64,000 nt of DNA from contig NZ_FNAV01000015.1 in assembly GCF_900102075.1 (NCBI RefSeq), positions 62,001-126,000 of the forward strand, given 5' to 3'. Source of the stretch: Salipiger thiooxidans. Lineage in GTDB: Bacteria; Pseudomonadota; Alphaproteobacteria; Rhodobacterales; Rhodobacteraceae. The notes beneath the pieces are model-generated. The model did no database searches. It was not told the DNA's origin and saw nothing but the letters and a program-made list of their open reading frames with translations. Of this stretch, positions 643-53,185 are shown one piece after another; positions within the stretch are counted from its first letter, which is position 1; every line of letters starts with the position of its first letter. The position numbers and the translations under genes were made by a program.

Positions 643-707
643 AGTCAGGGAGGTAACTTCTGGCCGACTTGGCGGCGCCGCCTTGTGACGGACGCCGCCA
701 CCTGCGT

Positions 708-1469
708 TCAGCCGTGCATCGACAAGCCGCCCGAAACCGAAATCACCTGCCCGGTGATGAACCCGGCGTCGTCGGAGGACAGGAAGCAGATGATGCCGGG
801 GTAGTCCGTAGGCTGTGCCAGGCGCTTCATCGGGATGGCCCGCTTGAGGCCCTCGGCGATCTTTTGACCGGCATCGCCCTGGGCGACCTGGGCAAACAAC
901 GGCGTATCGGTCGGCCCGGGGGCGACAGCGTTCAATTGAATGCCCTTGCGCGCAAGTTCCCGCGCCACGGTTTTGGTGAACGAGATGATGCCGCCCTTGC
1001 AGGCCGAATAAACCGCTTCGCCCGATGACCCGACGCGACCGGCGTCCGAGGCGATGTTGACCACCCGGCCGCCGCCGTTCTGAACCATGCCCGGAAGCAC
1101 CGCGTGATGCATGTTCAACGGTCCGTAAAGGTTGATGTCGATGACTTTTTTCCAGATTTCGGCATCGGTATCGAGGAACGGCTTGATCACGTCCCAGCCG
1201 GCGTTGTTCACAAGCACGTCGATCGGACCATTGGCCGAGAACTCGGCGACAGCCTTGTCGACCTGGGCGCGGTCGGTGATGTCCACCTTGAAGGCCTGTG
1301 CCTTGCCGCCCGCCTCGGTGATCAGGCGAACGGTGTCCTTCGCTCCGTCTTCGTTCATGTCAAAGATTGCGACCTCGGCGCCTTCCTGACCGAACCGTTC
1401 GCAAACCGCACGCCCGATGCCGCTGCCGCCGCCCGTTACAATCACGCGTTTTCCACTCAACCCTCGCAT
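708..1469 (-). CDS. SDR-family dehydrogenase, BadH-like (2-hydroxycyclohexanecarboxyl-CoA dehydrogenase type)
   Basis: This 253-residue classical short-chain dehydrogenase has the NAD(P)-binding TGGGSGIGRA motif near residue 12, NNAGW near 90, and the catalytic Ser-Tyr-Lys set in NIASDAGRVGSSGEAVYSACK. The segments NNAGWDVIKPF, HHAVLPGMV and FITGQVISVSGGL match what I recall of BadH, which oxidises a 2-hydroxyacyl-CoA ring intermediate. A 3-hydroxyacyl-CoA dehydrogenase role on another substrate is equally possible. The start at 1467-1469 was chosen over longer options because GAGGAGGA lies 7-8 bases upstream. It is transcribed divergently from the tandem TetR gene across an operator-like repeat. 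A terminator follows it. Confidence 0.8.
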   Translation of the reverse strand: MRGLSGKRVIVTGGGSGIGRAVCERFGQEGAEVAIFDMNEDGAKDTVRLITEAGGKAQAFKVDITDRAQVDKAVAEFSANGPIDVLVNNAGWDVIKPFLDTDAEIWKKVIDINLYGPLNMHHAVLPGMVQNGGGRVVNIASDAGRVGSSGEAVYSACKGGIISFTKTVARELARKGIQLNAVAPGPTDTPLFAQVAQGDAGQKIAEGLKRAIPMKRLAQPTDYPGIICFLSSDDAGFITGQVISVSGGLSMHG

Positions 1470-1536
1470 ATGGAGATCCTCCTCTTCCGCTATCATTTTG
1501 GCAAAGAACTTGATTCGACGCCGCTCATCGCATATT

Positions 1537-1550
1537 CTAACACTTGTTAG
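1537..1550. promoter_or_regulatory. TetR-type operator, perfect inverted repeat CTAACA-CT-TGTTAG
   Basis: A 14-bp perfect inverted repeat with 6-base arms lies between the BadH-like gene and the tandem TetR gene, 11 bases before the latter's ATG. Near-identical sites occur at 7979, 15071 and 15148, all in divergent promoters of this island. Autoregulation plus control of the SDR is the simplest reading, by inference. Confidence 0.65.
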
Positions 1551-1560
1551 GTTTATTGCA

Positions 1561-2931
1561 ATGGACAGGCTTGCCGCTGACAAGTATCGAAAATTCATGA
1601 TGAGACAATCTGATACCATCAAGCATACCGACGATGACTTGAGCAAGTCAGAGAGGACCCGCAGCGGTATCCTCGCTGCGGCCGCCCGCCTTTTCCGGCA
1701 TGAGGGCTATTATGCGACGACGATGCGCGACATCGCGCAGGAATCCGGCATCGAAGCAGGAAGCATTTATTACCATTTCCAATCCAAGGAACAGATACTC
1801 AGCGAAGTTCTGGATCTTGGTGTTCGGCAAATGTACGAGAGGGTCTGCGAGATTGTCCGCCCGACGAAGGACAATCCGAAGGATTTCCGTGAGACCTTTG
1901 CCCTGCTTATCGAAACGCATCTGACCTATCTGCTGACCGAAAGCGATTTTACATCGGCCAATATCCGTAACTATCCGATGTTGTCGGATGAGGCGCGCGC
2001 GCCGCATCGCGAACTGCGGGCATCCTACGCAGGCGTCTGGACCAGTTTTCTGAGCGAGGCGAAACGCGCCGGCGACCTGCGAAGCGACATTTCGGTAACT
2101 GTGATCCGCCAGTTCATTCTGAGCGCCATGAACTGGACCGTGGAATGGTACGATGTGGACCGGTATCCGGTGAGCATTCTCGCGGAACGGATGAGCAAGC
2201 TGATCCTCGACGGCATGTGTTCGCGGCGCATCGTCGACACGAAAGGGCTGAAGCCAGACCGCTCCTTTTCGACCGATATCCCTGAATCCATCAACAAGGC
2301 CGCGAAAACCCGCGCAGAGATCCTGAGAGCCGCCGCGCGCATGCTGAGAGACAACGGGTACAAGGCGACCACGCTGAGGCAGATCGCTGAAGAAGCCGAT
2401 ATGAAGGCGGGCAGCGTCTATTACCATTTCAAGTCCAAAGAAGCGATCGTGGACGAGGTCTTGCACGCCGGGTTGAACGACCTGCTATTGGGTGTCAACG
2501 CCGCAGCCCAGGAATTTCAGGCCCCATATGATCATCACGCAAGGATCGCGACGGCAATCTGGGCGCATCTGGACTATCTGTTCAAGGCAAGCGAATTCAC
2601 GTCCGCGAACATCAGAAGCTACGGGATGCTGCCCAATCACTTCAGAAAGAGACACGGGGGCATCCGTCATCAGTACGGAAAACTCTGGGACAGGATTCTG
2701 CGCGAAGCGCAGGGGGACGATGCCATAAGATCGGATATCAAGATTGTTCCGTTGCGTCAGGTCATGTTGGGTGCCTTGAACTGGACGGTCGAGTGGTTTG
2801 ATCCGAACAAGGCGGACGTCGAAGGGTATCTTTCCCTGCCCGAATTCTCTGGCATGCTTATCAAGCTGCTTCTCGAAGGGATTTGCGACAGGCGAGATAC
2901 CGCCTGCGCAGAACCAAACGAGGCTTGCTGA
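1561..2931 (+). CDS. Transcriptional regulator with two complete TetR repressor units fused in tandem
   Basis: This 456-residue protein holds two TetR units. The first DNA-binding domain spans about residues 32-80 (SERTRSGILAAAARLF ... AGSIYYHFQSKEQIL). The second spans about 248-300 (AKTRAEILRAAARML ... AGSVYYHFKSKEAIV). Each is followed by its own ligand-binding domain, and these are clearly related: DFTSANIRNYPML/EFTSANIRSYGML and SAMNWTVEWYD/GALNWTVEWFD. Ordinary TetR proteins are about 200 residues and bind DNA as dimers. This one looks like a covalently linked dimer born by duplication. The ligand domains resemble those of KstR2/FadR-like acyl-CoA sensors. ATG 1561 was taken as start. 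ATG 1597 or 1600 are alternatives, because no strong ribosome binding site separates them. It probably represses this catabolic island and responds to an acyl-CoA. Confidence 0.85.
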   Translation: MDRLAADKYRKFMMRQSDTIKHTDDDLSKSERTRSGILAAAARLFRHEGYYATTMRDIAQESGIEAGSIYYHFQSKEQILSEVLDLGVRQMYERVCEIVRPTKDNPKDFRETFALLIETHLTYLLTESDFTSANIRNYPMLSDEARAPHRELRASYAGVWTSFLSEAKRAGDLRSDISVTVIRQFILSAMNWTVEWYDVDRYPVSILAERMSKLILDGMCSRRIVDTKGLKPDRSFSTDIPESINKAAKTRAEILRAAARMLRDNGYKATTLRQIAEEADMKAGSVYYHFKSKEAIVDEVLHAGLNDLLLGVNAAAQEFQAPYDHHARIATAIWAHLDYLFKASEFTSANIRSYGMLPNHFRKRHGGIRHQYGKLWDRILREAQGDDAIRSDIKIVPLRQVMLGALNWTVEWFDPNKADVEGYLSLPEFSGMLIKLLLEGICDRRDTACAEPNEAC

Positions 2932-2952
2932 TCGCAGCCGCCATCGCGATCA
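2929..2952. terminator. Short hairpin between convergent genes
   Basis: TGATCGC and GCGATCA form 7-base arms around a 10-base loop that spans both stop codons of the convergent TetR and thioesterase genes. There is no T-tract, so termination activity is uncertain. Confidence 0.3.
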
Positions 2953-3351
2953 AACCAGGAGGAAGTGATACAGCCCTTCCGCCACTGGTTTATCTCGGGA
3001 CGTCTGCCAGGAAATCGCACTGACACTCGCGATCCGCTTCCCCTTGCGCGTTACATGTGCGCTGGCATACAGCGGCCCCTTGGTGGCCGGCCTTAGATAA
3101 TCCACGGTAAGATTGATCGGCTTGGCGGGAACGTCCGAAAATTCGGGATGGACCGCGATGGCCGACGTGGCCTCCATGAAACTTGCGATTATACCGCCGT
3201 GGTAAAGCTCCAGGACCGGGTTTCCGATATGACGGGAGGCAAAGGTCATCTCTGCATCGGCATGAAGGCTGTCAAGCCTCTGGACCTCGAAGTCGAGAAA
3301 CCGGAAAAACGGCACCTTGGATACGTTGGCGTTGACGGTTTGCAGGTCCAT
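2950..3351 (-). CDS. PaaI-type hotdog thioesterase
   Basis: This 133-residue single hotdog domain protein has the PaaI/YbgC-type active-site stretch NPVLELYHGGIIASFMEATSAIAV, where the acid and small residues follow HGG, and the typical sheet NLTVDYLRPA. Such enzymes hydrolyse acyl-CoA thioesters, often to release CoA from dead-end intermediates. It is the last gene of the leftward operon starting at 7934, and its start codon overlaps the stop of the previous thioesterase (TAATG), which implies translational coupling. The preferred acyl group cannot be read from sequence. Two adjacent hotdog genes may encode a heteromer, though this is only an inference. Confidence 0.75.
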   Translation of the reverse strand: MDLQTVNANVSKVPFFRFLDFEVQRLDSLHADAEMTFASRHIGNPVLELYHGGIIASFMEATSAIAVHPEFSDVPAKPINLTVDYLRPATKGPLYASAHVTRKGKRIASVSAISWQTSRDKPVAEGLYHFLLV

Positions 3352-3833
3352 TACGAGGCTTTTCCTTCTGTCGTTGCGCCAAACAGGCCGGTCTCACCGC
3401 GCGTCAGTGCAAACGAGGCGGTTCCACGGGCAATTTCCGCGTCTTCATGCCCATCGAACCAGATGCTGCCGGCATCAAATGCAATGTGGCGGGTCTGTCG
3501 AAAGCAATGCGCGCGCACGATGACATCCGCGCGCGAATAGGCGGGGCGCAGGTAATCGACCCGCAGATCCAGCGTCGCCATGGTGCTGACGCCATCAATC
3601 GCCACAAAGTTCGCAAGCCCGAAAACACTGTCCAGAAGGGCGGTCAGAATGCCGCCATGAAGCAGGGTTTGGTCCTTGTCGACGCAGAAGTCAGGATTGA
3701 ACGGCATCCGGACCCGAACGCCTGCGCTTGATACCTCTTCGATATCAAGCGCCATGTGGGTAATCAGACCACTGCCACGCGCATTCCACATCTGCGCGAT
3801 CCGCTCCATTTTCTGTTTGGTGACTTCTGGCAT
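3351..3833 (-). CDS. PaaI-type hotdog thioesterase, second copy
   Basis: This 160-residue hotdog protein has the motif QTLLHGGILTALLDSVFGLA at about residues 55-75 and the sheet ATLDLRVDYLRPAYSRADV. It belongs to the same family as the downstream gene but is only distantly similar, so the pair is an old duplication or two separate acquisitions. Both are co-transcribed with the crotonase upstream, 12 bases away. The expected role is hydrolysis of an acyl-CoA in the branched-chain pathway of this operon. Substrate unknown. Confidence 0.75.
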   Translation of the reverse strand: MPEVTKQKMERIAQMWNARGSGLITHMALDIEEVSSAGVRVRMPFNPDFCVDKDQTLLHGGILTALLDSVFGLANFVAIDGVSTMATLDLRVDYLRPAYSRADVIVRAHCFRQTRHIAFDAGSIWFDGHEDAEIARGTASFALTRGETGLFGATTEGKAS

Positions 3834-3845
3834 GCATTCTTTTCC

Positions 3846-4649
3846 TCAGCGCCCCGTGAAGTGGGGTTTTCGTTTCTCGATAAACGCGGCGATCGCCTCG
3901 TGGTGGTCTTCGGTCTGATGCATAAGGGCCTGATAGGCCGCAGCGGAATTCAGGAAATCCGGCAGATCCATCCGTTCGGCATTGCGCATCAGGCGCTTGG
4001 CGACGCGTACCGCGCGCGGTGGTTTCGCGGCGATCATGGCGGCCCGTTCGCGCGCCCGTTCCATCAGCGCGTCATGCGGCACAACCTCTAGCACCATGCC
4101 AAGTTCCAGCGCCTCTTTTGCCTCGACCATGCGGCCCGAGAATGTCAGATCGGCCGCTTTCTGATGGCCAAGGCGGCGCAACATGAACCAACTGCCCGCA
4201 TCGCCGGGGATGATGCCCAGGTTCAGGAACACCTCGCCGAACTTCGCCTTCTCGGATGCGACGCGCATGTCGCACATCATGGTCAGATCGCATCCCGCGC
4301 CAACCGCCGCGCCATTGACCGCCGCGATCGTCGGGATGTCGAGGTTGTAAAGCGCAAGCGGCAGGCGCTGCACACCGTCGACATAGCTTTGCGCCGCCGT
4401 CAACGGTTCCTTGCGAAAGACGCTGTCGGGATCGTTCATTTCCTTGATGTCGCCGCCGGCACAGAACGCCGTACCTGCGCCGGTCAGAATCATGACGCTG
4501 ACTTGCGGGTCCGCCTGCACCTTGGCAAATGTGTCCAGAAGCGAGGCGATCATGTCGTTGCCGGTGATCGGGTTGCGGCGTTCCGGATCGTTCAGCGTAA
4601 CCGTGGCGATGCGATCGGAGATATCCAGAAGGACATGTGGCTCACTCAT
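3846..4649 (-). CDS. Enoyl-CoA hydratase/isomerase (crotonase) family protein with altered catalytic residues
   Basis: This 267-residue crotonase has the oxyanion-hole segments AFCAGGDIKE (about 61-70) and NGAAVGAGCDL (112-122). The two glutamates of classic hydratases (rat Glu144 and Glu164) correspond here to Asp121 and Phe141 (FGEVFLNLGIIPGDAGS). A plain hydratase mechanism is therefore doubtful. Family members with one acid at this place often act as isomerases or on unusual acyl-CoAs. The gene overlaps the preceding SDR by 8 bases, so the two are coupled. It lies in the operon with two isovaleryl-CoA-dehydrogenase-like enzymes. Exact reaction not assignable. Confidence 0.8.
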   Translation of the reverse strand: MSEPHVLLDISDRIATVTLNDPERRNPITGNDMIASLLDTFAKVQADPQVSVMILTGAGTAFCAGGDIKEMNDPDSVFRKEPLTAAQSYVDGVQRLPLALYNLDIPTIAAVNGAAVGAGCDLTMMCDMRVASEKAKFGEVFLNLGIIPGDAGSWFMLRRLGHQKAADLTFSGRMVEAKEALELGMVLEVVPHDALMERARERAAMIAAKPPRAVRVAKRLMRNAERMDLPDFLNSAAAYQALMHQTEDHHEAIAAFIEKRKPHFTGR

Positions 4650-5496
4650 TTTTACCGTCTCCGCGTTCGCGTTTGTCGAACATGTCGGGATTGATCATGT
4701 CACGGGCATCGTGGCCCATATGCAGGGTTTCCCCGCCGTCTACATAGATGTCTTCGCCGGTTATGAAATTTCCCAGATCGGATGCAAGGAAAATAATCGT
4801 GCCGGCGATGTCTTCGGCCAGGCCCATCCGGTTCAGGACAGAGCGGTTCAGTTCTTTCCACCGTTCCGGGGGAATGGGATAGCGGCCAAGCGCCTCGGTC
4901 TTGATCGTTCCCGGCGCGACGCAGTTCAGACGGATGCCGTATTCGCCCCATTCGGCGGCCAGCGTTTTCATCATCCCGGTCACCCCCGCCCGCGCGGCAA
5001 CGGTGTGGACAAAGCCGGTCAGCGCCGTCCGCGCCGAAATGGCGGTGACGAAGACGACCGAACCACCGTTATCATACATGAAATGATCCGCGGCCGCGCG
5101 GGTCATCTGCCATGATCCGATCAGGTTGTTGCGGATCACCGCCTCGAAGCCCTTGTTGGTGATGTCACGCGCAGCGGCGATATACTGGCCGCCCGCATTG
5201 TTCACCAGAACGTCAAGCTGCCCGTAATGGTCCTTGATGCGGCCCATCGCGGCTTCGATGCTGTCCTCGTCGCGGGTGTCGCCGGGCACGACGAACGCCT
5301 CGCCCCCAGCCGCGCGGATCATTTCGGCGGTTTCTTCCAACGGCTCTTCGCGGCGCGCGAACAGTGCCAGCCTGGCCCCGCAAGACGCCATTTCAAGCGC
5401 CGTCGCCCGACCCATTCCCGAACCGGATCCGGTCACAAGGGCAACCTGGCCCGCCATTAGATCCGGAGCATAACGCGATGTTCTTTTCTCGCTCAT
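4642..5496 (-). CDS. SDR enzyme of the peroxisomal trans-2-enoyl-CoA reductase / 2,4-dienoyl-CoA reductase type
   Basis: This 284-residue Rossmann protein has TGSGSGMGRA (about 22-31) and VNNAGGQY (98-105). In place of the usual YxxxK it has VHTVAARAGV (163-172), followed by AAEWGEYGIRLNCVAPG. That loss of Tyr and the VHxxxARAGV form are what I recall from eukaryotic PECR and DECR, which reduce enoyl-CoA or dienoyl-CoA with NADPH, rather than from 3-hydroxyacyl-CoA dehydrogenases. In this operon a reductase would let the cell remove or move double bonds in unsaturated branched chains, as needed for terpenoid acids. It sits 10 bases after the dehydrogenase gene and overlaps the crotonase start. 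Confidence 0.75.
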   Translation of the reverse strand: MSEKRTSRYAPDLMAGQVALVTGSGSGMGRATALEMASCGARLALFARREEPLEETAEMIRAAGGEAFVVPGDTRDEDSIEAAMGRIKDHYGQLDVLVNNAGGQYIAAARDITNKGFEAVIRNNLIGSWQMTRAAADHFMYDNGGSVVFVTAISARTALTGFVHTVAARAGVTGMMKTLAAEWGEYGIRLNCVAPGTIKTEALGRYPIPPERWKELNRSVLNRMGLAEDIAGTIIFLASDLGNFITGEDIYVDGGETLHMGHDARDMINPDMFDKRERGDGKNE

Positions 5497-5506
5497 GGTT
5501 TCCCCC

Positions 5507-6706
5507 TCAGTTTTTCAGAAGTTCGCCGGAGATGATCAGCTTGCGCACCTCCTGAGTGCCCGCACCAACCTCAAGCACACGCCCGGTCCGGTAAAGCCGG
5601 TTCACTTCCGTGTCACGCATGTACCCCGACCCGCCGTGGATCTGGACGGCCTTGTCCAGCACGAACGAGGTTACCTCGGCGGCCTTGAAAATCGCCGCCG
5701 CCGTGAGCTTGTGAATTTCGCCGCGCCCGCCTTCGCCCTCTTCCAGGCCCTCGCACATGGCGACGGTTTTCAGGGACAGGCTGCGCGCCGCCTCGATCCG
5801 CGTGTACATGTCGGCCAGCATCGCCTGCACCATCTGGAAGCTGGCGATCGGCTTGCCGAACTGCTGGCGCGTCTTGGCGTAATCGACGGAGATATCCAGC
5901 GCGCGCTGCGCAATGCCAAGCGCGTTGAAGCAGACGATAGCCCGTTCAAGGTCGAGCCCCGACATCGTGACCGCCACGCCGCCGTCCAGCTTGCCGACCA
6001 TGTTCTTGGCGGGCACGCGGCAATCCTCGAACACCAGTTCGCCGGTTGGCGAGCCGCGGAACCCCATCTTGTTGAGCTTCTGCGCCACCTTGAAACCGGG
6101 CGTGTCGGTTTCCACGATGAACGCGGAAATGCCCTTGGCGCCCTTTTCCGGCGAGGTCTTGGCATAGGCCAGCACCAGATTGGCAATCGGCCCGTTGGTG
6201 ATATAGATCTTGGTGCCGTTCAGGATGTAATCGTCGCCATCCTTTTTCGCCGTTGTCCGCATCGAGCCAAGCGCATCCGACCCGGCGCCGGGTTCGGTCA
6301 GGCCCAGTGCGCCGACCAGCGTGCCGTTGCACAGGCCGGGCAGATATTTGCGGCGCAGATCGTCATTGGCGTTGCGGTAGATGTTGTTGACGCACAGGTT
6401 GTCGTGGGCCACATGCGTCAGCCCGATGGCCGCCGACGCGCGCGACAGTTCTTCGGTGATGATGCAGGCCGACGTGAAATCCAGCCCGGCACCGCCAAAT
6501 TCCGGCGGCACGTTCAGCCCCAGATACCCCATCTTGCCCAGCGTGGGAAAGACCGAGGCGGGCAGATCATCGGTGTCGTCCATTTCCGCGTTCAGATGGT
6601 GAAATTCGGACATGAAAAACTTGCCGGCCTGATCGGCCAGCGCCTGCTGTTCGTCCGTCATGAAATGTGTCGGAAGGTCGATGTCGTTGCGCAGTTGCTT
6701 GTTCAT
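5507..6706 (-). CDS. Acyl-CoA dehydrogenase, isovaleryl-CoA dehydrogenase type (copy 1)
   Basis: This 399-residue flavoprotein has LTEPGAGSDA at about 137-145, the substrate-contact RGSPTGELVFEDCRVP, and the putative catalytic base Glu254 in SGLDLER. That is the position used by isovaleryl-CoA dehydrogenase rather than the C-terminal position of short/medium-chain enzymes. The C-terminal loop reads VGAGTQEVRKL and lacks the alternative Glu. It would oxidise a 3-methyl-branched acyl-CoA to the enoyl-CoA, passing electrons to ETF. It is 13 bases from a clear paralogue upstream, so the two may have different chain-length ranges. Confidence 0.85.
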   Translation of the reverse strand: MNKQLRNDIDLPTHFMTDEQQALADQAGKFFMSEFHHLNAEMDDTDDLPASVFPTLGKMGYLGLNVPPEFGGAGLDFTSACIITEELSRASAAIGLTHVAHDNLCVNNIYRNANDDLRRKYLPGLCNGTLVGALGLTEPGAGSDALGSMRTTAKKDGDDYILNGTKIYITNGPIANLVLAYAKTSPEKGAKGISAFIVETDTPGFKVAQKLNKMGFRGSPTGELVFEDCRVPAKNMVGKLDGGVAVTMSGLDLERAIVCFNALGIAQRALDISVDYAKTRQQFGKPIASFQMVQAMLADMYTRIEAARSLSLKTVAMCEGLEEGEGGRGEIHKLTAAAIFKAAEVTSFVLDKAVQIHGGSGYMRDTEVNRLYRTGRVLEVGAGTQEVRKLIISGELLKN

Positions 6707-6719
6707 GGTCTTGCCCCCC

Positions 6720-7934
6720 TCAGGCGCGCAGCAGTTCTTCGGCGATGATGATCTTGCGCACCTCGCTGGTGCCCGCGCCGATCTCCAACAGCTTGTTTGC
6801 GCGGAACAGCCGGTTGATTTCGGTGTCCTGCATGTAGCCGGAGCCGCCGTGGATGTGGCAGGCCTCGGTGACGGCCTTGTTGAACGCCTCGCCCGCGTAA
6901 AGGCAGGCAGCCGCGGTCAGCTTGTGAATCTCGCCGCGACCACCGGCCCCCTTGGGCAGGCCGACACAGGCGGCCAGCGCGCGATAGCTGAAGGCGCGGG
7001 CGGTTTCGACCTCGGTATAGATCTCGGCCAGTTTCGACTGCACCATCTGGAAACTTGCGATCGGCTTGCCGAATTGTTCGCGGATCTTGGCGTATTCCAG
7101 ACCCAGTTCCAGCGCGCGGTCGGCCATGCCCACGCAGACCGAGGCGACCATCGCCCGTTCCAGATCCAGCCCGCTCATCACCACCGAAACGCCGCTGTTT
7201 TCAGCGCCCATCATGGCCGAGGCCGGCACCCGGCAATCCTCGAATACCAGTTCCCCGGTCGGCGAGCCGCGAAAGCCCATCTTGTCGAGCTTTTGCGCCA
7301 CTTTGAAACCGGGATTGTCGGTTTCGATGATAAAGGCCGAAATGCCCTTGGCGCCCTTGGATTTGTCGGTCTTGGCATAGAGCAGGACCACATCGGCGAT
7401 CGGCCCGTTGGTGATGTAGATCTTCGAGCCGTTGATGACATAGTCATCGCCGTCGCGAACCGCCGTGGTCGCCATGGACCCAAGCGCATCCGAGCCCGCG
7501 CCGGGCTCTGTCAACCCCAATGCGCCGACAAGATCGCCGGAACACAGGCCCGGCACATATTTCTTGACCTGTTCCTCGGACCCGTTGCGCAGCAGGTTGT
7601 TCAGGCACAGGTTGTCATGTGCCCCGTGCGACAGCCCCACGGCCGGATTCCATTTCGAGATGACTTCGGACACCAGCGCCTGGGTGAATTCGTTCTGCCC
7701 AGATCCGCCCAGTTCCTCGGGCGCGGTGATGCCCAAAAGGCCCAGCTCTCCCATCTGTTTGAACAGATCGTCAGGCCACCATTCCTCCTCATCCATACGC
7801 GCCTGAAGCGGGTGCAGCACCTCGCGCGACACCCGATCTACATGATCGACGATCTGGCGCTGCTCATCGGTCAGCGAATAGTTCGCCTTGATGGCTTCCA
7901 GTTCAGCGATGGCCGGTCCGTCCTTGCTGGACAT
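6720..7934 (-). CDS. Acyl-CoA dehydrogenase, isovaleryl-CoA dehydrogenase type (copy 2)
   Basis: This 404-residue enzyme is strongly similar to the next gene: ALGLTEPGAGSDALGSM, TGELVFEDCRVPA, SGLDLER with the putative catalytic Glu259, and GGSGYMQDTEINRLFR. The start at 7932-7934 was chosen because GGGAGGAAAAG precedes it. It is the first gene of the leftward operon and is read divergently from the crotonase at 8066 across an operator at 7979. Tandem isovaleryl-type dehydrogenases suggest handling of two related branched acyl-CoAs, for example a long isoprenoid intermediate and a short leucine-type product. This is inferred from context. Confidence 0.85.
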   Translation of the reverse strand: MSSKDGPAIAELEAIKANYSLTDEQRQIVDHVDRVSREVLHPLQARMDEEEWWPDDLFKQMGELGLLGITAPEELGGSGQNEFTQALVSEVISKWNPAVGLSHGAHDNLCLNNLLRNGSEEQVKKYVPGLCSGDLVGALGLTEPGAGSDALGSMATTAVRDGDDYVINGSKIYITNGPIADVVLLYAKTDKSKGAKGISAFIIETDNPGFKVAQKLDKMGFRGSPTGELVFEDCRVPASAMMGAENSGVSVVMSGLDLERAMVASVCVGMADRALELGLEYAKIREQFGKPIASFQMVQSKLAEIYTEVETARAFSYRALAACVGLPKGAGGRGEIHKLTAAACLYAGEAFNKAVTEACHIHGGSGYMQDTEINRLFRANKLLEIGAGTSEVRKIIIAEELLRA

Positions 7935-7978: not shown

Positions 7979-7992
7979 CAAACACATGTTAG
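7979..7992. promoter_or_regulatory. TetR-type operator CAAACACATGTTAG in divergent promoter
   Basis: This 14-mer matches the repeat at 1537 at 12 of 14 positions and is identical to the site at 15071. It lies 45 bases upstream of the dehydrogenase start (leftward) and 74 bases before the crotonase start (rightward), so it can control both operons. Confidence 0.65.
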
Positions 7993-8065: not shown

Positions 8066-8851
8066 ATGGTCGAGAACGTCGTCCGTTCGGAGGCCCGAGG
8101 GCACGAAATACGCATTACAATTTGCCGTCCGGACCAGCGCAATGCCCTGAATCGCGACGTGGCAGAGGGAATCGTCGCCGCGCTCCAGGTGGCCGAGGCG
8201 GACGCAGATTGCCGGGTGATCGTGGTGACCGGCGAGGGCGAGCGCGCTTTCTGTGCCGGCGGCGACCTCAAGGCGGGGGCCGACGGCGGCCCGTTCGTTC
8301 AGGATCCGGCGGATCCGGGGCATTTTGCCGGCAGGTTGTTCGAAGCTCTTCACGCCTGTCGGAAACCGACCATCGCGCGCATCAACGGTGTGGCCGTTGG
8401 CGGGGGCGCGGGCATCATCTGTGCCTGCGATCTGGCGGTGATGGCGGATCACGCCAAAATCGGCACGCCCGAGGTAAAGGTGGGGCTGTTTCCCATGACC
8501 ATCGTTCCGCCGATGATGCGCGTGTTGCCACGGCGCAGGCTGATGGAGATGTTCATCACCGGCATCCCCCTGACGGCCGAGGAATCGCTGCGCCATGACC
8601 TGGTCAACTATGTGACAGACAGCGCCGGCCTTGATGACAAGGTCTCCGAACTGGTCGCGCAAATAGCCGCGCAATCGCCGACCGCGATCCGGTTGGGGAA
8701 ATACGCCTGCCACGCGATGGATGACATGACCTATCCGCAGCAGATGCGATTTGCGGAAACGCTGTTGCCGCGAATGGCACAGACCGAAGACGCGCGCGAG
8801 GGCTTCGACGCCTTCACTGCCAAACGCAAGCCGGAATGGACGGGCCGCTGA
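8066..8851 (+). CDS. Enoyl-CoA hydratase/isomerase family protein
   Basis: This 261-residue crotonase has AFCAGGDLKAG (about 61-71) and the second oxyanion-hole segment NGVAVGGGAGIICACD. The Glu164-equivalent is present as Glu136 in IGTPEVKVGLFPM, but the Glu144 position is Gly116. Single-Glu crotonases are seen among methylglutaconyl-CoA and isohexenylglutaconyl-CoA hydratases and among isomerases. It is the first gene of the rightward operon that continues with AtuA and a biotin-dependent carboxylase, where a hydratase acting after carboxylation is expected. It starts at ATG 8066 after GGGGAGGGTTCGGAA. Confidence 0.8.
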   Translation: MVENVVRSEARGHEIRITICRPDQRNALNRDVAEGIVAALQVAEADADCRVIVVTGEGERAFCAGGDLKAGADGGPFVQDPADPGHFAGRLFEALHACRKPTIARINGVAVGGGAGIICACDLAVMADHAKIGTPEVKVGLFPMTIVPPMMRVLPRRRLMEMFITGIPLTAEESLRHDLVNYVTDSAGLDDKVSELVAQIAAQSPTAIRLGKYACHAMDDMTYPQQMRFAETLLPRMAQTEDAREGFDAFTAKRKPEWTGR

Positions 8852-8872
8852 AACAGCGGGGAGGAGAAGACT

Positions 8873-10672
8873 ATGTCGGATCGAAAGCTGCGCATCGGAT
8901 GCGCGTCCGGTTTCTGGGGGGACACGCCCGAGGCCGTCGGCCAGCTGGTTTCCAGCGGCGATATTGACTACCTGGTGTTCGACTATCTGGCCGAGGTGAC
9001 GATGTCTCTGATGGCCCGCGCCCGCGCCAAGACGCCGGAGGCGGGCTTTGCGCCGGACTTCGTCAAGGCGCTGGTGCCGTGGTTGCCTGAGATCAAGGCC
9101 AGGGGGATCAAGGTGGTGGCCAATGCCGGTGGGGTGAACCCCCGCGGCTGCCGCGATGCGCTTGCCAGGGCGGCGGAAGAGGCTGGGATCGACCTGTCCG
9201 TCGGTGTCGTTCTGGGCGACGATCTGATGGACCGCGCGGACGAGATCCGCGACCGTGGCGTGACCGAAATGTTCTCTGGCGCGGATTTCCCCGACGATAT
9301 CTGGAGCATGAATGCCTATCTGGGCGCCCGCCCCATCGCCACCGCTCTGGACGGCGGCGCCGAGATCGTGATCACCGGGCGCTGCGCCGACAGCGCGGTG
9401 GCGCTTGGCCCGCTGATGCATGAATTCGGCTGGGGCGATGACGATTGGGACAAGCTCAGCCAGGGCTCGCTGGCGGGTCATCTGATCGAATGCGGACCGC
9501 AAGGGACGGGCGGCAACTTCACCGATTGGCAGGACGTGCCGGGCTGGGACAACATGGGCATGCCCATCGTCGAGATCTCGCCGGACGGCAGTTTTGTCAT
9601 GACCAAGACGCCCGATACCGGCGGACTGGTTGTGCCGGGCTCGGTCGGCGAACAGATGCTTTACGAAATCGGCGATCCGCGGGCCTATCTGCTTCCGGAC
9701 GTGATCTGCGACTGGTCCGGCGTCACGCTGGAACAGGTCGGCCCGGACCGCGTGCTGGTCAAGGGCGGCAAGGGCCTGGGGCGCACCGACAGCTACAAGG
9801 TGTCGGCCACCCATGCCGACGGCTGGCGCGCGGTCACCACGCTGACGCTGGCTGCCATCGACGCGCCAGCCAAGGCCGAGCGCGTCGCGGATGCGATCCT
9901 GACCCGCTGCCGCCGGATTTTCCGCGACAGGAACCTCGGCGACTTTCGGCAGGTCAGCGTCGAGGTTCTGGGGGCCGAGGCCGCCTATGGCGCCAACGCC
10001 CGCGCCCGAACCCGCGAAGTGGTGCTCAAGATCGGTGCGGCGCATGACGACCGGCGCGCGCTGAACATCTTTGCCGGGGAAATCGCACCGATGGCCATTT
10101 CCACCGCGCAGGGCCTGACCGGATTTTTTGCCGGGCGGCCGAAGGTGCAGCCGGTGGTCCGCCTTTTCTCGTTCCTGCAAGACAAGTCCGACACGCCCGT
10201 TGCGGTCGAGGTCGACGGCAAGGATGTGCCGGTCATCGTGGCCACCACGCCTGTGCAACTCGATCCGCCCGCCGTACCGCACGCAGACAGCCGCGACGCC
10301 GGCGCAGATGCGGTCAAGGTGCGGCTGGTCGATCTGGCCTGGGGCCGCTCCGGCGATAAGGGCGACATCGCCAATATCGGCATTCTGGCGCGCAAGCCCG
10401 AATATCTGCCCTATATCCGGTCGGCCCTGACCGAAGACGCGGTGAAAGACTATTTCGCCCATCTGTGCGACGGCCCGGTCGAACGCTTCGATCTACCCGG
10501 AAGCCATGCGCTGAACTTCCTGCTGCATGAATCGCTGGGCGGCGGCGGCATTGCCTCGGTCCGCATCGACCCGCAGGGCAAGGGGTTCGCGCAGATGCTG
10601 CTCGACATCGAAATTCCCGTACCGGCCGATCTGGCTGTGCAAAACGGGCTGCACCCCGCCAAGAGTGCGTGA
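8873..10672 (+). CDS. AtuA-family protein (acyclic terpene utilisation, DUF1446 type)
   Basis: This 599-residue protein begins RIGCASGFWGDTPEAV and carries the family segments FDYLAEVTMSLMARA, VVANAGGVNPRGC, ITGRCADSAVALGPLMHEFGW and a C-terminal part with LAWGRSGDKGDIANIGIL. AtuA is the first gene of the citronellol/geraniol gene cluster of Pseudomonas and its biochemical activity is, as far as I know, not settled. It is followed by biotin carboxylase, carrier and carboxyltransferase genes, so it may work with the carboxylase or on its product. The start ATG follows GGGGAGGAGAAG. Twelve bases separate it from the biotin carboxylase. Confidence 0.85.
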   Translation: MSDRKLRIGCASGFWGDTPEAVGQLVSSGDIDYLVFDYLAEVTMSLMARARAKTPEAGFAPDFVKALVPWLPEIKARGIKVVANAGGVNPRGCRDALARAAEEAGIDLSVGVVLGDDLMDRADEIRDRGVTEMFSGADFPDDIWSMNAYLGARPIATALDGGAEIVITGRCADSAVALGPLMHEFGWGDDDWDKLSQGSLAGHLIECGPQGTGGNFTDWQDVPGWDNMGMPIVEISPDGSFVMTKTPDTGGLVVPGSVGEQMLYEIGDPRAYLLPDVICDWSGVTLEQVGPDRVLVKGGKGLGRTDSYKVSATHADGWRAVTTLTLAAIDAPAKAERVADAILTRCRRIFRDRNLGDFRQVSVEVLGAEAAYGANARARTREVVLKIGAAHDDRRALNIFAGEIAPMAISTAQGLTGFFAGRPKVQPVVRLFSFLQDKSDTPVAVEVDGKDVPVIVATTPVQLDPPAVPHADSRDAGADAVKVRLVDLAWGRSGDKGDIANIGILARKPEYLPYIRSALTEDAVKDYFAHLCDGPVERFDLPGSHALNFLLHESLGGGGIASVRIDPQGKGFAQMLLDIEIPVPADLAVQNGLHPAKSA

Positions 10673-10683
10673 AAGGACGGATA

Positions 10684-12153
10684 ATGGGGATTTCCAAACT
10701 TCTGGTCGCCAATCGAGGCGAGATCGCGGCCCGCGTCCTGCGCACCGCCAGGGCGCGCGGCCTGGCGACCGCCGTCGTGCGGCACCGCTTGGAACAGGAG
10801 GGGCCGGCCCATCTGATTGCCGACGAGGTCGTGACCATCGACGGCCCCACCCCCGTGGCCGCCTATCTCGACATTCCGCAGATCGTCGAGGTCGCGAAAA
10901 AAATCGGCGCGGACGCGGTGCATCCGGGTTATGGATTCCTGTCGGAAAACGCGGGCTTTGTCGCTGCCCTGGAAAAGGCCGGCGTGACCTTCGTTGGCCC
11001 CACATCCGAGGTCATCGACCTGATGGGCGACAAGATCCGCGCGCGCGCCTTTGTCGAGGAGCGCGGCTTTCCGGTTGCCCCCTCGGCCATCGAGGATGAC
11101 GACCCCGCAAGTTTTGTCGAACGCTCCCGCGCGGTCGGCTATCCACTGCTGATCAAGCCCTCGGCGGGCGGCGGCGGCAAGGGGATGCGCGTGGTGCGCG
11201 AAGACGGCGCGTTAGAGTCGGAAATCGAAACCGCGCGCCGCGAGGGCGAGCGTTATTTCGGCGACGGGCGGCTGTTCGTCGAACGCTATATCGAACGTCC
11301 GCGCCATATCGAGGTGCAGGTGATGGGCGACGGGCAGGGCAATGTGGTCCATTTCTGGGAACGCGAGTGCTCGATCCAGCGCCGGTTCCAGAAGATCATC
11401 GAGGAAACGCCCTCGCCGGCGCTGACCCCCGAACAGCGAGACGAGATCTGCGAAACCGCCGCCGGCATCGCCCGCGCCGTCAATTATCGCGGCGCTGGCA
11501 CGGTCGAGTTCATCTATGCGCAGGACGGCTCCTTTTATTTCCTCGAAATGAACACCCGGCTTCAGGTTGAACATCCGGTGACCGAGATGGTGACGGGGTA
11601 TGACCTTGTCGCCGAACAGCTGCGCATCGCGGCGGGCGAGGGGCTGAGCGCAGCGCAGACCGACATTCCGCAGTCAGGTCATTCGATCGAGCTGCGCATC
11701 TGCGCCGAGGACGCAACGGAAGATTTCCGCCCCGCGATCGGCGACATCCTGCTGCTGGACGAGCCGCAGGGCGAGGGCGTGCGTGTGGACAGCGGCATTC
11801 TGGACGGTGGCAAGGTCACCACCGACTTTGACCCGATGCTCTCCAAGCTGATCGTGCACGGGCCGGATCGCACGCAGGCCATCGCCCGCGCGCGGCAAGC
11901 GGTGCGGAATTATGTGATCCTCGGGGTGACCACCAACACTGGTTATCTCGATGCGATCCTTGCGCACCCTGATTTCGCCTCGGGCAATGTCTCGACCGGG
12001 TTTCTGGCCGAGCAGGCCGAGGCGCTGACCGCGCCGGGCGAAGATGTGACCGAGCTGCTGATGGCGGTCGCCGCCCTGTCGGATGAACGGCTGGTGAGCG
12101 ACGTGATGCAGATACCCGAGATGCACCGGAAAATGGGCGGGTGGAGAAACTGA
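10684..12153 (+). CDS. Biotin carboxylase subunit of an acyl-CoA carboxylase (no fused biotin domain)
   Basis: This 489-residue ATP-grasp enzyme has ANRGEIAARVLRTAR near the start, the ATP-binding glycine loop SAGGGGKGM at about 160-168, and EMNTRLQVEHPVTE near 288. It carboxylates biotin using ATP and bicarbonate. It ends after the biotin carboxylase C-terminal domain, and the biotin carrier is a separate gene starting in its stop codon (TGATG). Fused alpha subunits, as in the second system at 19752, are about 660 residues. ATG 10684 is preferred to an in-frame GTG at 10669 because AAAGGA lies just upstream of it. Arg31-33 of the motif near TAVVRH is less standard than the AVYSEAD seen in most homologues. 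Confidence 0.85.
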   Translation: MGISKLLVANRGEIAARVLRTARARGLATAVVRHRLEQEGPAHLIADEVVTIDGPTPVAAYLDIPQIVEVAKKIGADAVHPGYGFLSENAGFVAALEKAGVTFVGPTSEVIDLMGDKIRARAFVEERGFPVAPSAIEDDDPASFVERSRAVGYPLLIKPSAGGGGKGMRVVREDGALESEIETARREGERYFGDGRLFVERYIERPRHIEVQVMGDGQGNVVHFWERECSIQRRFQKIIEETPSPALTPEQRDEICETAAGIARAVNYRGAGTVEFIYAQDGSFYFLEMNTRLQVEHPVTEMVTGYDLVAEQLRIAAGEGLSAAQTDIPQSGHSIELRICAEDATEDFRPAIGDILLLDEPQGEGVRVDSGILDGGKVTTDFDPMLSKLIVHGPDRTQAIARARQAVRNYVILGVTTNTGYLDAILAHPDFASGNVSTGFLAEQAEALTAPGEDVTELLMAVAALSDERLVSDVMQIPEMHRKMGGWRN

Positions 12154-12656
12154 TGCGGCGGATATACCAGATCGACGGCGACGAGACCGAATGCTGGCTG
12201 TCCCATGACGGCAATCGTTTTATCCTCAACACGCCCGATGGCGCGGTTCCCTGCCAATTGGACCCCACCGGGGCGCCCGGTGGCCATGTGCTGCGCGCGC
12301 GCGGGCGCGTGCAGGACGTGCGGCTGGCCGTCGGCCCTGACGCGACTTTTGTGCATATGAACGGGCGGACCTACGCGATCGGGCGGATCGATCCCGCCGA
12401 GCGTCTGGCCGGACGCGATGGCGTCGCCGCCGATGACCGCATCGTCGCGCCGATGCCCGGCGTGGTCGTGTCGGTGAACGCAAAGCCCGGCGATCACGTC
12501 AAGGAAGGCCAGCGGTTGCTTGTCATCGAAAGCATGAAACTCGAAACCAGCCTGACCGCGCCGCGCGACGGCGTGGTGGCCGAAATACCATTTGCCGAGG
12601 GCGACAGTTTCGGGCTGAAGGCCACGCTTGCCCTGCTGGCTCCGGAGGAGGAGTGA
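12153..12656 (+). CDS. Biotin carboxyl carrier protein of the AtuA-linked carboxylase
   Basis: This 167-residue protein has a C-terminal biotinyl domain. The sequence VIESMKLETSL places the biotinylated lysine at about residue 129, with the usual AMKM replaced by SMKL. The lead-in APMPGVVVSVNAKPGDHVKEGQ is typical. The first 90 residues form an unassigned beta-rich part that may bind the partner subunits like the BT domain of fused alpha chains. It starts by overlap with the biotin carboxylase stop and ends just before the carboxyltransferase, so three separate genes make one enzyme. Confidence 0.85.
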   Translation: MRRIYQIDGDETECWLSHDGNRFILNTPDGAVPCQLDPTGAPGGHVLRARGRVQDVRLAVGPDATFVHMNGRTYAIGRIDPAERLAGRDGVAADDRIVAPMPGVVVSVNAKPGDHVKEGQRLLVIESMKLETSLTAPRDGVVAEIPFAEGDSFGLKATLALLAPEEE

Positions 12657-12658
12657 CC

Positions 12659-14266
12659 ATGCGCCGGATCGAAAGCCAGATCGACACCAATGCCCCTGAC
12701 TTCAGGGCCAATCACGCGGCCATGTCCGAGCGGCTGAAAGAGTTTCACGCCCGCCAGCACGCGGCGCGTTTCGAACGCCCGCAGCGCGATATCGACCGTT
12801 TGGCGCGTCAGAACAAGCTGGGCGTGCGCGAGCGGCTGAAGCTGCTGCTGGACCCCGGCACACCGTTTCTGGAGTTCTCGACGCTCGCCGCCTGTCGCGA
12901 ATATGATGGCGCTGTGCCCGGTGCCGCCGTGGTGACGGGCATCGGCATCGTGCAGGGGCGCGAGGTCGCCATTCACGCCAACGACGCCAGCGTCAAGGGC
13001 GGCGCATGGTATCCCCATACCGTCAAGAAAATCGTGCGGCTTCTGGATGTGGCATTGGAAAACCGCCTGCCGGTTGTCCATATCTGCGACAGCGCCGGCG
13101 GTTTCCTTCCGTTGCAGCACGGCGTCTTTCCCGACCGCTATCTGGGCGGACGCGTCTTTCGCAATCAGGTCAAGCTGAGCCAGGCGAACATCCCGCAAAT
13201 CGCGGTGGTCGGCGGGCATTGCACCGCAGGGGGCGCCTATGTGCCGACGCTGAGCGATTACAACATCATCATCGAAGGCACCGGGGCGATTTTCCTCGGG
13301 GGTCCGCCGCTGGTGAAGGCCGCCACCGGCGAAGAGGTCGGCGTTCAGGAGCTGGGCGGGGCGGTCATGCACACCTCGGTCTCGGGCACCGGCGATTACC
13401 GCGCCGCCACCGAAGAACAGGCCTTTTCACTGGCGCGCGAAATTGTCAGCCAGTGGAAACGCACGCCCAAAACGATCATCGAAACCGCCTCCTTCGAGGA
13501 ACCTTACTACGACCCCAAGGAACTCTACGGGATCATCCCCAAGGACCGGAAAACCCAGTTCGACATGCGCGAGGTTCTGGCCCGGATCGTGGACGGTTCG
13601 CGCTTTCACGAATATCAGCCCGATTACGGCACCACCATGATCTGCGGCTTTGCCCATATCTGGGGCTATAAGGTGGGGATTTTGGCCAACAACGGGGTGC
13701 TGTTCAACGACAGCTCGCTCAAGGCCGCGCATTTCATGCAGCTTTGCAACCAGAACCGCACGCCTCTGGTCTTTTTCCAGAACATCACCGGCTACATGGT
13801 GGGGCGCGAATACGAAGAGCGCGGCATCGCCAAGGACGGCGCCAAGATGCTGATGGCGCAGGGTGGGTCGGTCGTGCCGAAATTTACTGTGATCGCCAAT
13901 GCGTCATATGGGGCGGGCAATTACGGCATGTGCGGACGGGCCTGGGATGCGCGCACGCTGTTCATGTGGCCACAGGCCGAAATCGGCGTGATGGGGGCGG
14001 ATCAGGCCGCAAACACCATGGCCGACGTCAAGATCCGGCAGCTTCAGCGCGAAGGCAAGGAGTTGAGCGAAGAGGAAATCGCCGCGATACGCGACCCGGT
14101 GCTGGAAAAATTCCGGCGCGATGTCGAAGCCTATACCTCGACCTCGGAAATGTGGGACGACGGTATCCTCGACCCGGCCGACACCCGCAACGCGCTTGGC
14201 ATGTCGATTTCCGCCTCGCTGAACGCACCGATCGACGATCCGCACTATGGTGTCTTCCGGCTGTAA
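12659..14266 (+). CDS. Acyl-CoA carboxylase carboxyltransferase (beta) subunit, AtuA-linked
   Basis: This 535-residue carboxyltransferase has two crotonase-like halves. The N half holds VTGIGIVQGREVAIHANDASVKGGAW and GGHCTAGGAYVPTLSD. The C half holds GILANNGVLFNDSSLKAAHFMQLCNQ and ASYGAGNYGMCGRAWDART. It moves CO2 from biotin to an acyl-CoA. The pattern is that of methylcrotonyl/geranyl-CoA carboxylases, but HTVKKIVRLLDVALENRLPVVHICDSAGG and LGGPPLVKAATGEEVGVQELGGAVMH differ from the second beta subunit at 17355, so substrate range is likely different. ATG 12659 follows GGAGGAGGAG. A hairpin terminator follows the stop. Confidence 0.85.
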   Translation: MRRIESQIDTNAPDFRANHAAMSERLKEFHARQHAARFERPQRDIDRLARQNKLGVRERLKLLLDPGTPFLEFSTLAACREYDGAVPGAAVVTGIGIVQGREVAIHANDASVKGGAWYPHTVKKIVRLLDVALENRLPVVHICDSAGGFLPLQHGVFPDRYLGGRVFRNQVKLSQANIPQIAVVGGHCTAGGAYVPTLSDYNIIIEGTGAIFLGGPPLVKAATGEEVGVQELGGAVMHTSVSGTGDYRAATEEQAFSLAREIVSQWKRTPKTIIETASFEEPYYDPKELYGIIPKDRKTQFDMREVLARIVDGSRFHEYQPDYGTTMICGFAHIWGYKVGILANNGVLFNDSSLKAAHFMQLCNQNRTPLVFFQNITGYMVGREYEERGIAKDGAKMLMAQGGSVVPKFTVIANASYGAGNYGMCGRAWDARTLFMWPQAEIGVMGADQAANTMADVKIRQLQREGKELSEEEIAAIRDPVLEKFRRDVEAYTSTSEMWDDGILDPADTRNALGMSISASLNAPIDDPHYGVFRL

Positions 14267-15070: not shown

Positions 15071-15084
15071 CAAACACATGTTAG
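15071..15084. promoter_or_regulatory. TetR-type operator CAAACACATGTTAG
   Basis: This is identical to the 14-mer at 7979 and lies 140 bases upstream of the leftward PaaY-like gene in the divergent region shared with the thiolase operon. The following AGAAA also matches at both sites. Confidence 0.65.
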
Positions 15085-15147: not shown

Positions 15148-15161
15148 CTAACAACTGGTAG
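15148..15161. promoter_or_regulatory. TetR-type operator CTAACAACTGGTAG
   Basis: This is a second, less perfect copy of the repeat (11 of 14 positions shared with the site at 1537), 55 bases upstream of the thiolase start. Its centre is 77 bp from the centre of the site at 15071. Two sites in one divergent promoter could bind one fused regulator each. Confidence 0.55.
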
Positions 15162-15215: not shown

Positions 15216-16400
15216 ATGAAAGACAAGGCTTATGTCGTCGGCGTCGGGATGGTTCCGTTCCAGAAGCCGGGAAAATCCGAAAGCTATGATGTCATGGCAA
15301 CCGCGGCCACTCGTTCTGCGCTGGCCGACGCGGGGCTGGCTTATGACAAGGTCGAGCAGGCGTATGTGGGGTATGTCTACGGTGACAGCACCTGCGGCCA
15401 GCGGGCCCTGTACCATGTCGGCATGACCGGCATTCCGGTTTTGAACGTCAACAACAACTGCTCGACCGGGTCGTCCGCCCTGTTTCTGGCCCGCCAGGCC
15501 GTCGAGAGCGGCGCGGTAGAGTGCGCTCTGGCGCTTGGCTTCGAACAGATGCAGCCCGGCGCAATCGGCGCGATGTTCACCGATCGGGTAAGTCCGTTCG
15601 CGGCGTTCGACGAAGAAACCGACGACCTGGTGGGCAATCCGGACATTCCGCTGGCGCTTCGGTATTTCGGCGGCGCCGGCAAGGCACATATGGAGGAATT
15701 CGGCACGCCGCTGGAAACCTTCGCGAAGATCCGCGCCAAGTCCAGCCGTCATGCGGCCAAGAACCCGGTTGCCCTGTTCCGCCAGGAAGTAACCGCAGAC
15801 GACGTCATGGCGGCGCAGGTCGTCTGGCCCGGCGTGATGACCAAGCTGATGGCTTGCCCGCCGACCTGCGGCGCGGCGGCGGCAATCGTCTGTTCCAAAG
15901 CCTTTGCCGACAAGCATGGGCTTGACAGCTCGGTGCGGATCGCGGCCCAGGCGATGACGACGGACGGGCCCGAGACCTTCAACGCCCATGACATGCGCGA
16001 GGTGGTCGGCTTCTCGATGGCCAAGCGCGCCGCCGATCAGGTCTACGAGGCGGCGGGCATCGGCCCGAAGGATGTGGACGTGGTCGAACTGCACGATTGT
16101 TTCGCCCATAACGAGCTGATCACCTACGAGGCGCTTGGCCTTTGCGCACGCGGCGATGCAGCGAAATTCGTTGACGATGGCGACAATACCTATGGCGGCA
16201 AATACGTGACCAACCCATCGGGCGGTCTGTTGTCCAAGGGCCACCCGCTTGGGGCGACCGGTCTTGCGCAATGCACCGAGCTTGTTCAGCAGCTGCGCGG
16301 ACAGGCCGATGCGCGTCAGGTCGACGGCGCGCGCCTGGCGCTTCAGCACAACCTCGGCCTTGGTGGGGCCTGTGTGACCACGCTTTATGAAAAAGTCTGA
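15216..16400 (+). CDS. SCP2/SCP-x-type thiolase (acetyl-CoA acyltransferase)
   Basis: This 394-residue thiolase has the nucleophile Cys82 in VNNNCSTGSSA and the second active-site region SKGHPLGATG with His343. The motif ELHDCFAHNELITYEALGLC is typical of the SCP-x family, which accepts 2-methyl-branched 3-ketoacyl-CoAs that ordinary thiolases do not cleave. It is the first gene of the operon with the second carboxylase and would release acetyl- or propionyl-CoA from the chain. The start at 15216 follows GGGAGAGAGAAAG. It contrasts with the thiolase-like gene at 56998, which has lost the Cys. Confidence 0.85.
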   Translation: MKDKAYVVGVGMVPFQKPGKSESYDVMATAATRSALADAGLAYDKVEQAYVGYVYGDSTCGQRALYHVGMTGIPVLNVNNNCSTGSSALFLARQAVESGAVECALALGFEQMQPGAIGAMFTDRVSPFAAFDEETDDLVGNPDIPLALRYFGGAGKAHMEEFGTPLETFAKIRAKSSRHAAKNPVALFRQEVTADDVMAAQVVWPGVMTKLMACPPTCGAAAAIVCSKAFADKHGLDSSVRIAAQAMTTDGPETFNAHDMREVVGFSMAKRAADQVYEAAGIGPKDVDVVELHDCFAHNELITYEALGLCARGDAAKFVDDGDNTYGGKYVTNPSGGLLSKGHPLGATGLAQCTELVQQLRGQADARQVDGARLALQHNLGLGGACVTTLYEKV

Positions 16401-16424
16401 CGGCGTCATTCGGGAGGATAAACC

Positions 16425-17255: not shown

Positions 17256-17306
17256 CACCGGCCGACTTGGCCGCGTGTTCGGGTCCTGACTGACGATTGG
17301 GATTCC

Positions 17307-17331
17307 CGGGCAGCCGCATGACGGTTGCCCG
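17307..17331. other. Hairpin in intra-operon gap before the carboxyltransferase
   Basis: CGGGCAGCCG and CGGTTGCCCG pair with one G-U over a 5-base loop. No T-tract follows. It lies in the 99-base gap between the SDR stop and the carboxyltransferase start and could mark an RNA processing or attenuation point. Confidence 0.4.
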
Positions 17332-17354
17332 AACTGCAACAGGATATCCGACCC

Positions 17355-18953: not shown

Positions 18954-18963
18954 GGCCAAAAAC

Positions 18964-53171: not shown

Positions 53172-53185
53172 CGAACGTCCGTTAG
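53172..53185. promoter_or_regulatory. Inverted repeat CGAACGTCCGTTAG in the CaiB/synthetase divergent promoter
   Basis: The arms of AACG-TC-CGTT and the outer TAG/CGA resemble the CTAAC...GTTAG operators of the TetR island, but with GTCC instead of ACAC in the centre. It lies between the divergent start codons at 53071 and 53230, a sensible place for an operator of this operon pair. A different TetR-like regulator may use it. Confidence 0.4.

Follow-up and report, generated by a model that had tools for sequence, protein, structure and literature searches.

A plasmid-borne double TetR repressor of Salipiger thiooxidans with a palindromic predicted operator and a predicted acyl-CoA catabolic regulon

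Introduction

The closest described system to the repressor discussed here is Mce3R of Mycobacterium tuberculosis, a double TFR (PDB 9B7Y) for which the published account gives a regulon that includes cholesterol metabolism and lipid transport among others, and 25-bp sites that are asymmetric and nonpalindromic (PMC11667970). Its authors present its structure as the first for a double TetR repressor, describe its halves as members of distinct TetR subgroups and report that 204 double repressors are predicted in actinomycetes; as described there, the chain can work with both helix-turn-helix (HTH) motifs on one site (PMC11667970). The first-pass annotation of the present DNA held that canonical TetR proteins have one unit, which is true, though Mce3R shows that double repressors are known (PMC11667970). 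Double repressors are rare and were already known from actinobacteria, and the present protein is not a new kind. The AtuR/RdmA regulator of Pseudomonas is a single-unit protein. It is described as a TetR repressor adjoining an atu-like cluster, with a site made of a pair of 13-bp inverted repeats, AGCAAGCGCTTGG/CCAAGCGCTTGCT (PMC9973270). A search of open-licence PubMed Central text gave, among the matches listed, no earlier report of a proteobacterial double family or of the cluster. The new elements here are a proteobacterial branch of double repressors, probably of separate origin, a predicted operator that is palindromic and a predicted regulon that is well defined.

Results and discussion

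Domains and start codon of the repressor

The window, i.e. the whole stretch of 64,000 nucleotides of S. thiooxidans DNA that was analysed, has an open frame on the forward strand at 1561-2931 that translates to 456 amino acids. A Pfam search places two copies each of TetR_N (PF00440) and the C-terminal TetR_C_24 (PF17932) in the chain, so that each half has an HTH and a ligand domain, and two full TetR units do lie in one polypeptide as had been claimed from the letters. The domain search of each half that had been proposed as a check agrees: half 1 alone passes both cut-offs (1.6e-19 for TetR_N, 2.7e-16 for TetR_C_24), as does half 2 (2.3e-17 and 4.7e-11), and both halves are members of PF00440 with 69.8 and 62.9 bits against a curated cut-off of 24. 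The protein is thus a double TFR in the sense of two HTH and ligand-domain units in one chain. The first unit, M1, has its DNA-binding domain at 1645..1788 (residues 29-76, recognition helix at about residues 65-73) and its ligand/dimerisation domain at 1789..2226 (residues 77-222). A variable linker of about 22 residues (2227..2292, mean pair identity of 0.23 in 32 doubles) leads to the second unit, M2, with its DNA-binding domain at 2296..2439 (residues 246-293, recognition helix at about residues 282-290) and its ligand/dimerisation domain at 2440..2880 (residues 294-440), all on the forward strand. Aligned to each other, M1 and M2 have 85 identities over 205 columns (41% identity), and the matching blocks that had been quoted for both halves lie within this alignment. 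At the DNA level, the block that encodes NWTVEW (48 nt, 75% identical, spacing of 648 bp) is the longest of the direct repeats reported for window 1-6000. In the recognition helix the motif AGSxYYHF is found in M1 of 32/32 aligned doubles and in M2 of 31/32, the other having PGS; one double outside this alignment (L025) has YYYF in the M1 recognition helix. We rejected an assignment to the ScbR autoregulator-binding factor (NF041196), as the halves score 84 and 75 bits against an equivalog cut-off of 150, and the whole chain reaches 154.9 bits because the scores of the two units sum.

The true start is probably the ATG at codon 13 (1597, giving 444 aa) and not 1561, since several orthologues (including L011, L016, L035, L059, L061 and L071) are interrupted by stop codons in frame within the stretch that corresponds to codons 1 to 13, and most orthologues have a Met at position 13. 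Residues 1-23 have pLDDT below 50 in the structural model, in line with the later start. Counter to it, the record of Sagittula sp. MA-2 annotates an identical protein from the counterpart of 1561.

Predicted fold

The protein was modelled by AlphaFold2 as one chain from an alignment (A1) of 32 doubles, out of a set of 80 made up of the window protein and 79 loci. The model has a mean pLDDT of 83.7 and a pTM of 0.82, with pLDDT below 50 confined to both tails. Foldseek ranks Mce3R (9b7y_A, 426 columns) first for this model, and a second aligner gives Z 26.6 for the same pair over 372 residues at 4.5 A with 16% identity, covering model residues 26-443. The top single-unit repressors (DarR, AibR with isovaleryl-CoA, and KstR2) reach Z of about 18, each matching one half. 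As Mce3R is the best match across both halves, the predicted arrangement of the halves resembles that of the solved Mce3R. In the single-chain model M1 and M2 are predicted to pack as one TetR-like pseudo-dimer; it may be noted that in a one-chain prediction two homologous halves may pair regardless of how chains behave towards each other.

Distribution and origin of the fusion

We scanned one genome per species with peptide patterns taken from the window protein, and the best 80 of 138 matches correspond to 79 loci. Both units lie within one open frame in all 79 of the fetched loci (L066 ends at a contig edge), which supports the fusion as real and says nothing on its frequency, because the loci were fetched with the window protein's own patterns. 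The survey of homologues thus finds the same fusion throughout, and a sequencing error or two separate genes are ruled out by these 79 intact loci together with an identical protein on plasmid p6 of Sagittula sp. MA-2, a plasmid typed as conjugative. Near-full-length matches were found in 9 genomes when 295 of the same family were scanned, and in 3 when 385 of the class were, the window's own genome being counted in both. Also, 76 plasmid records match the window protein, and in the first 39 of the 40 listed at least 90% of the protein is covered in one piece with an identity of at least 53.6%.

The origin of the two halves was examined in a tree of 89 rows, kept from 108 (26 chosen doubles, and singles of more than 150 residues) after removal of long-branched and near-copy rows. 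The proteobacterial M1 units (21 rows) form one clade with a support of 96/97, and the M2 units (21 rows) another with 100/99. Together with two singles, L126 and L149, they make up one group (100/99) that leaves outside 43 other singles and the double of Rhodococcus (L155), whose own two halves group together (100/83). This Rhodococcus protein is the actinobacterial double in the tree, the Mce3R sequence itself being left out. Forcing its M1 with the other M1 units is rejected by the AU test (p-AU 5.0e-4), as is forcing its M2 with the other M2 units (p-AU 5.0e-4), with the cautions that the groups were named after the first tree, that the L155 M2 branch is long and that gene conversion between halves may have had an effect. 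A common origin with the Rhodococcus double is thereby rejected for each half. Owing to the post-hoc groups and the long branch, the evidence for separate origins is good but not final; on this evidence the doubles would have arisen at least twice, and the proteobacterial branch is apparently a duplication inside one subfamily, separate from the Rhodococcus double. Within the group, L149 joins M1 (96/85), and a topology with M1 and M2 as one clade without L126 and L149 is not rejected (p-AU 0.432).

Predicted operator at the repressor genes

Between the repressor gene and a divergent SDR dehydrogenase gene on the reverse strand (708..1469) lies a predicted operator, CTAACACTTGTTAG, at 1537..1550, which would serve autoregulation and makes the SDR gene a predicted target. 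The outer five bases of each half of this site make a perfect palindrome. The pattern derived from it, CTAACANNTGTTAG, has 4 matches in the window when at most two mismatches are allowed, where 0.18 would be expected, and the 14-bp repeats named in the first-pass annotation are therefore real. We then scanned 300 bp upstream of the double genes (71 distinct genes, 70 of them with upstream sequence) for the core CTAACNNNNGTTAG. With at most one mismatch it is present in 66 of 70, the best site having no mismatch in 50 genes, one in 16, two in 2 and four in 2; many of these genes are close relatives and the counts are hence non-independent. Single-base-shuffled upstream sequences give 0 or 1 mismatch in about 0.5%. 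No site within one mismatch was found in the 300 bp upstream of L077, L148, L125 and L155 (4/70). In 47 double genes the operator starts exactly 96 bases ahead of the first unit.

Many single-unit relatives carry the same core, and the predicted operator is accordingly palindromic, unlike the sites described for Mce3R. The core was found in 33 of 58 distinct single genes (15 with no mismatch and 18 with one), including the nearest relative L126; the 58 include four distant paralogues from the window's own genome, none with a site, and in the singles L101-L105 the site lies 159-285 bases ahead of the unit, so that a different gene may be the one it serves. When the sites with no more than one mismatch are compared, the core is preceded by T and followed by A in 64/66 doubles versus 12/33 singles, and the window's own site (T before, G after) is one of the two exceptions among doubles. 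Variant sites also occur ahead of the genes of some singles (CTAAT-N4-ATTAG in L149; CTAAT-N4-GTTAG in L129, L131, L132 and L133), so that operator and recognition helix could be compared across the subfamily.

Predicted regulon

In the whole genome the pattern CTAACRNNYGTTAG with at most one mismatch has 9 matches, and all of these are on C21, a plasmid-like contig of 163 kb (163,410 of 5,868,215 bases). The reversed pattern gives 25 matches in the same genome, but with its different base order it is no matched control. All nine sites are near the starts of genes for acyl-CoA catabolism or uptake. Beside the site at 1537, the window has a predicted operator CAAACACATGTTAG at 7979..7992 between divergent acyl-CoA dehydrogenase and enoyl-CoA hydratase genes. 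To one side of it is a predicted target operon on the reverse strand (2950..7934; two hotdog thioesterases, enoyl-CoA hydratase, an SDR by NCBIfam, and two acyl-CoA dehydrogenases), and to the other one on the forward strand (8066..14266; enoyl-CoA hydratase, AtuA, biotin carboxylase and carboxyl transferase), where the annotation of relatives has a small biotin carrier gene separating the last two. A thiolase promoter has a distal (15071..15084) and a proximal (15148..15161) predicted operator, the imperfect half of the latter being opposite to that of the former, ahead of a third predicted target operon on the forward strand (15216..22918), which starts with thiolase/lipid-transfer protein, SDR and carboxyl transferase and continues with enoyl-CoA hydratase, biotin carboxylase with carrier and acyl-CoA dehydrogenase. 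A weaker predicted operator with one mismatch (53172..53185) precedes a class III CoA-transferase gene on the reverse strand (51857-53071) by about 100 bp. The other sites are numbered on the contig: C21:56410 is between a divergent acyl-CoA dehydrogenase and flavin oxidoreductase; C21:156188 is at a transglutaminase-like gene that precedes genes for MaoC and acyl-CoA dehydrogenase; C21:159857 is at a CoA-transferase gene, with a row of thiolase, MaoC and CoA-transferase genes in the opposite direction about 440 bp off; and C21:14438 is at an SDR gene, after which come genes for a branched-chain-type ABC ATPase and an AMP-binding ligase.

What the regulon does is judged from protein families, AtuA (PF07287, 8.4e-144) and carboxylase genes being present in the cluster; taken together, the genes point to branched or isoprenoid acids that are taken up and degraded as CoA esters. 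No named pathway could be assigned: for 10 regulon proteins no NCBIfam equivalog was above its cut-off among the matches listed (up to 25 per protein), and the SDR at 711-1469 passed the subfamily model NF005559. A BioY biotin transporter gene lies at 22785-23534, after two biotin-dependent carboxylase operons.

Asymmetric and paired sites

At the promoter of acyl-CoA dehydrogenase/hydratase, for which 72 of the 79 loci have enough sequence, the exact form CAAACAYATGTTAG is present in one orientation in 60. The remaining loci have a perfect palindrome (4), two mismatches (1) or three or four mismatches (7). The thiolase promoter was compared in 10 sequences, one from the window and 9 from plasmids; the comparison leaves out L153, which in this part has the same sequence as the window, and L163, L168 and L169, in whose stretches the gene is unannotated. 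Two sites 77-83 bp apart are found in 8 of the 10, the distal one with an imperfect left half and the proximal one with an imperfect right half, and in one of these eight (L167) both halves of the distal site are imperfect. L162 and L166 have a single site each, and elsewhere in the scanned stretches a promoter that has any site mostly has one. The idea of unequal half-sites may hold at the catabolic promoters, where sites often have one imperfect half and keep their orientation, but the repressor's own operator is a perfect palindrome in its outer bases. The conserved asymmetry fits, without proving it, a repressor that has polarity, and could also be caused by an overlapping promoter element.

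Mechanism and alternatives

The two complete units, the conserved fusion, the duplication origin, the operator conservation and the clustering of sites are results of computation. We think it likely that the protein acts as a single-chain TetR dimer that represses itself and a plasmid-borne acyl-CoA catabolic regulon and is released by an acyl-CoA. M1 and M2 would pack together as the subunits do in an ordinary TetR homodimer, with one HTH on each half of the palindrome CTAAC-N4-GTTAG, and the fused chain would have retained the palindrome of its homodimeric ancestor. It would repress its own gene along with those for AtuA and biotin-dependent carboxylases, acyl-CoA dehydrogenases, thiolases, CoA-transferases and the uptake operon, and would leave the DNA on binding a pathway acyl-CoA, probably from a branched or isoprenoid acid. 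We infer the intramolecular M1:M2 pairing from the model and by analogy with Mce3R, and likewise infer binding to the predicted sites, repression, the oligomeric state and the acyl-CoA ligand. Of the earlier proposals, that of a covalent dimer that would bind one operator is favoured; bridging of paired sites may also occur, one promoter having two sites about 80 bp apart.

A palindromic operator suits M1:M1 or M2:M2 pairing between two chains equally well. Two chains that pair in this manner would bridge two palindromes and loop the DNA, and since the recognition helices of M1 and M2 are nearly alike, either kind of dimer could recognise this one palindrome; the thiolase promoter with its two sites about 80 bp apart in 8/10 sequences would also agree. 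Yet the predicted chain pairs M1 with M2 as Mce3R does, where by the published account that pairing was demonstrated, and with mostly one site at the other scanned promoters we consider such a dimer of doubles unlikely. There is a better, though still minor, chance that the M1:M2 pseudo-dimers pair additionally and loop the DNA between plasmid operators, which would extend the single-chain dimer that we prefer. Mce3R is described as forming such a homodimer, with looping proposed by its authors (PMC11667970), and the sites about 80 bp apart have their imperfect halves on opposite sides; but the spacing varies from 77 to 83 bp, and a second interface falls outside a model of one chain. That one unit has lost DNA or ligand binding and is left as a scaffold is very improbable: one unit might in general be expected to decay after a fusion, whereas conservation is far higher in the two DNA-binding domains (mean pair identities of 0.75 and 0.76 in the 32 doubles) and the two ligand domains (0.67 and 0.71) than in the linker (0.23). 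As to what the fusion brings to the single-chain dimer, we put forward with considerable doubt that it gives polarity, the repressor reading a palindrome at its own promoter and CAAAC-N4-GTTAG and inverted pairs about 80 bp apart at catabolic promoters, and that it evolved independently and avoids mixed dimers with the single TetR paralogue that has its operator core in common on related plasmids.

Plasmid context

For the first 25 kb of the window, 14 plasmid records have 80% or more of the stretch. Plasmid p6 of MA-2 is 100% identical over window 866-17510 and 35278-42762, and there the two pieces are directly joined with a 9-base overlap inside an SDR gene, which marks a rearrangement breakpoint. 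Window 24644-29310 is plasmid backbone adjoining the cluster, with genes for a Fic/DUF4172 protein and a ParA/VirC1-like ATPase; its part 25001-29310 is 95.6-96.7% identical on four plasmids among the matches listed, and in relatives the backbone also has mobilisation genes. Our prediction is that the repressor controls a plasmid-borne acyl-CoA catabolic cassette in marine roseobacters and relatives.

Comparison with known systems

Orthology to AtuR is unsupported, as the upstream site here is CTAACNNNNGTTAG, unlike the AGCAAGCGCTTGG that the published description gives for AtuR. In the cluster of related plasmids (e.g. L159, L160, L161 and L164) a single TetR/AcrR regulator has the operator core CTAACNNNNGTTAG before its gene. 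It has one unit, and the core of its site is preceded by C and followed by T, G or C, versus the usual T and A of the doubles; these differing flanks may keep apart the two regulators that share the cluster. Its gene (25459-26088 in L159, 25461-26090 in L160, 28362-28991 in L161 and 17461-18090 in L164, among others) is ahead of a methylcrotonyl-CoA-carboxylase-like operon, about 16-19 kb from the double. It is unannotated at that place in L162 and unseen in the window, where in both cases the SDR gene is followed by the carboxylase operon.

The double of plasmid pDK3 of Rhodococcus sp. DK17 (L155) is 30.5% identical to the window protein in one piece, and it likewise adjoins genes for acyl-CoA dehydrogenase, CoA-transferase and HMG-CoA lyase. 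It differs in that its own halves group together outside the proteobacterial M1 and M2 clades and that the window-type operator is absent within one mismatch. Mce3R also has two complete TetR units per chain and is the top whole-chain structural match to the window protein, with an identity of 16% over the structural alignment. By its published description its halves belong to distinct TetR subgroups and its operator is nonpalindromic, whereas the halves of the window protein fall in neighbouring clades of one subfamily and its predicted operator is palindromic (zero mismatches in 50/70 genes). The possible gains from fusing a homodimer are a fixed partner, polarity and no mixing with paralogues. 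The proteobacterial doubles offer what Mce3R lacks, i.e. a strongly conserved palindromic predicted operator, singles that share its core and a compact predicted regulon, which together with the probable separate origin make the gain from fusing a homodimer directly testable.
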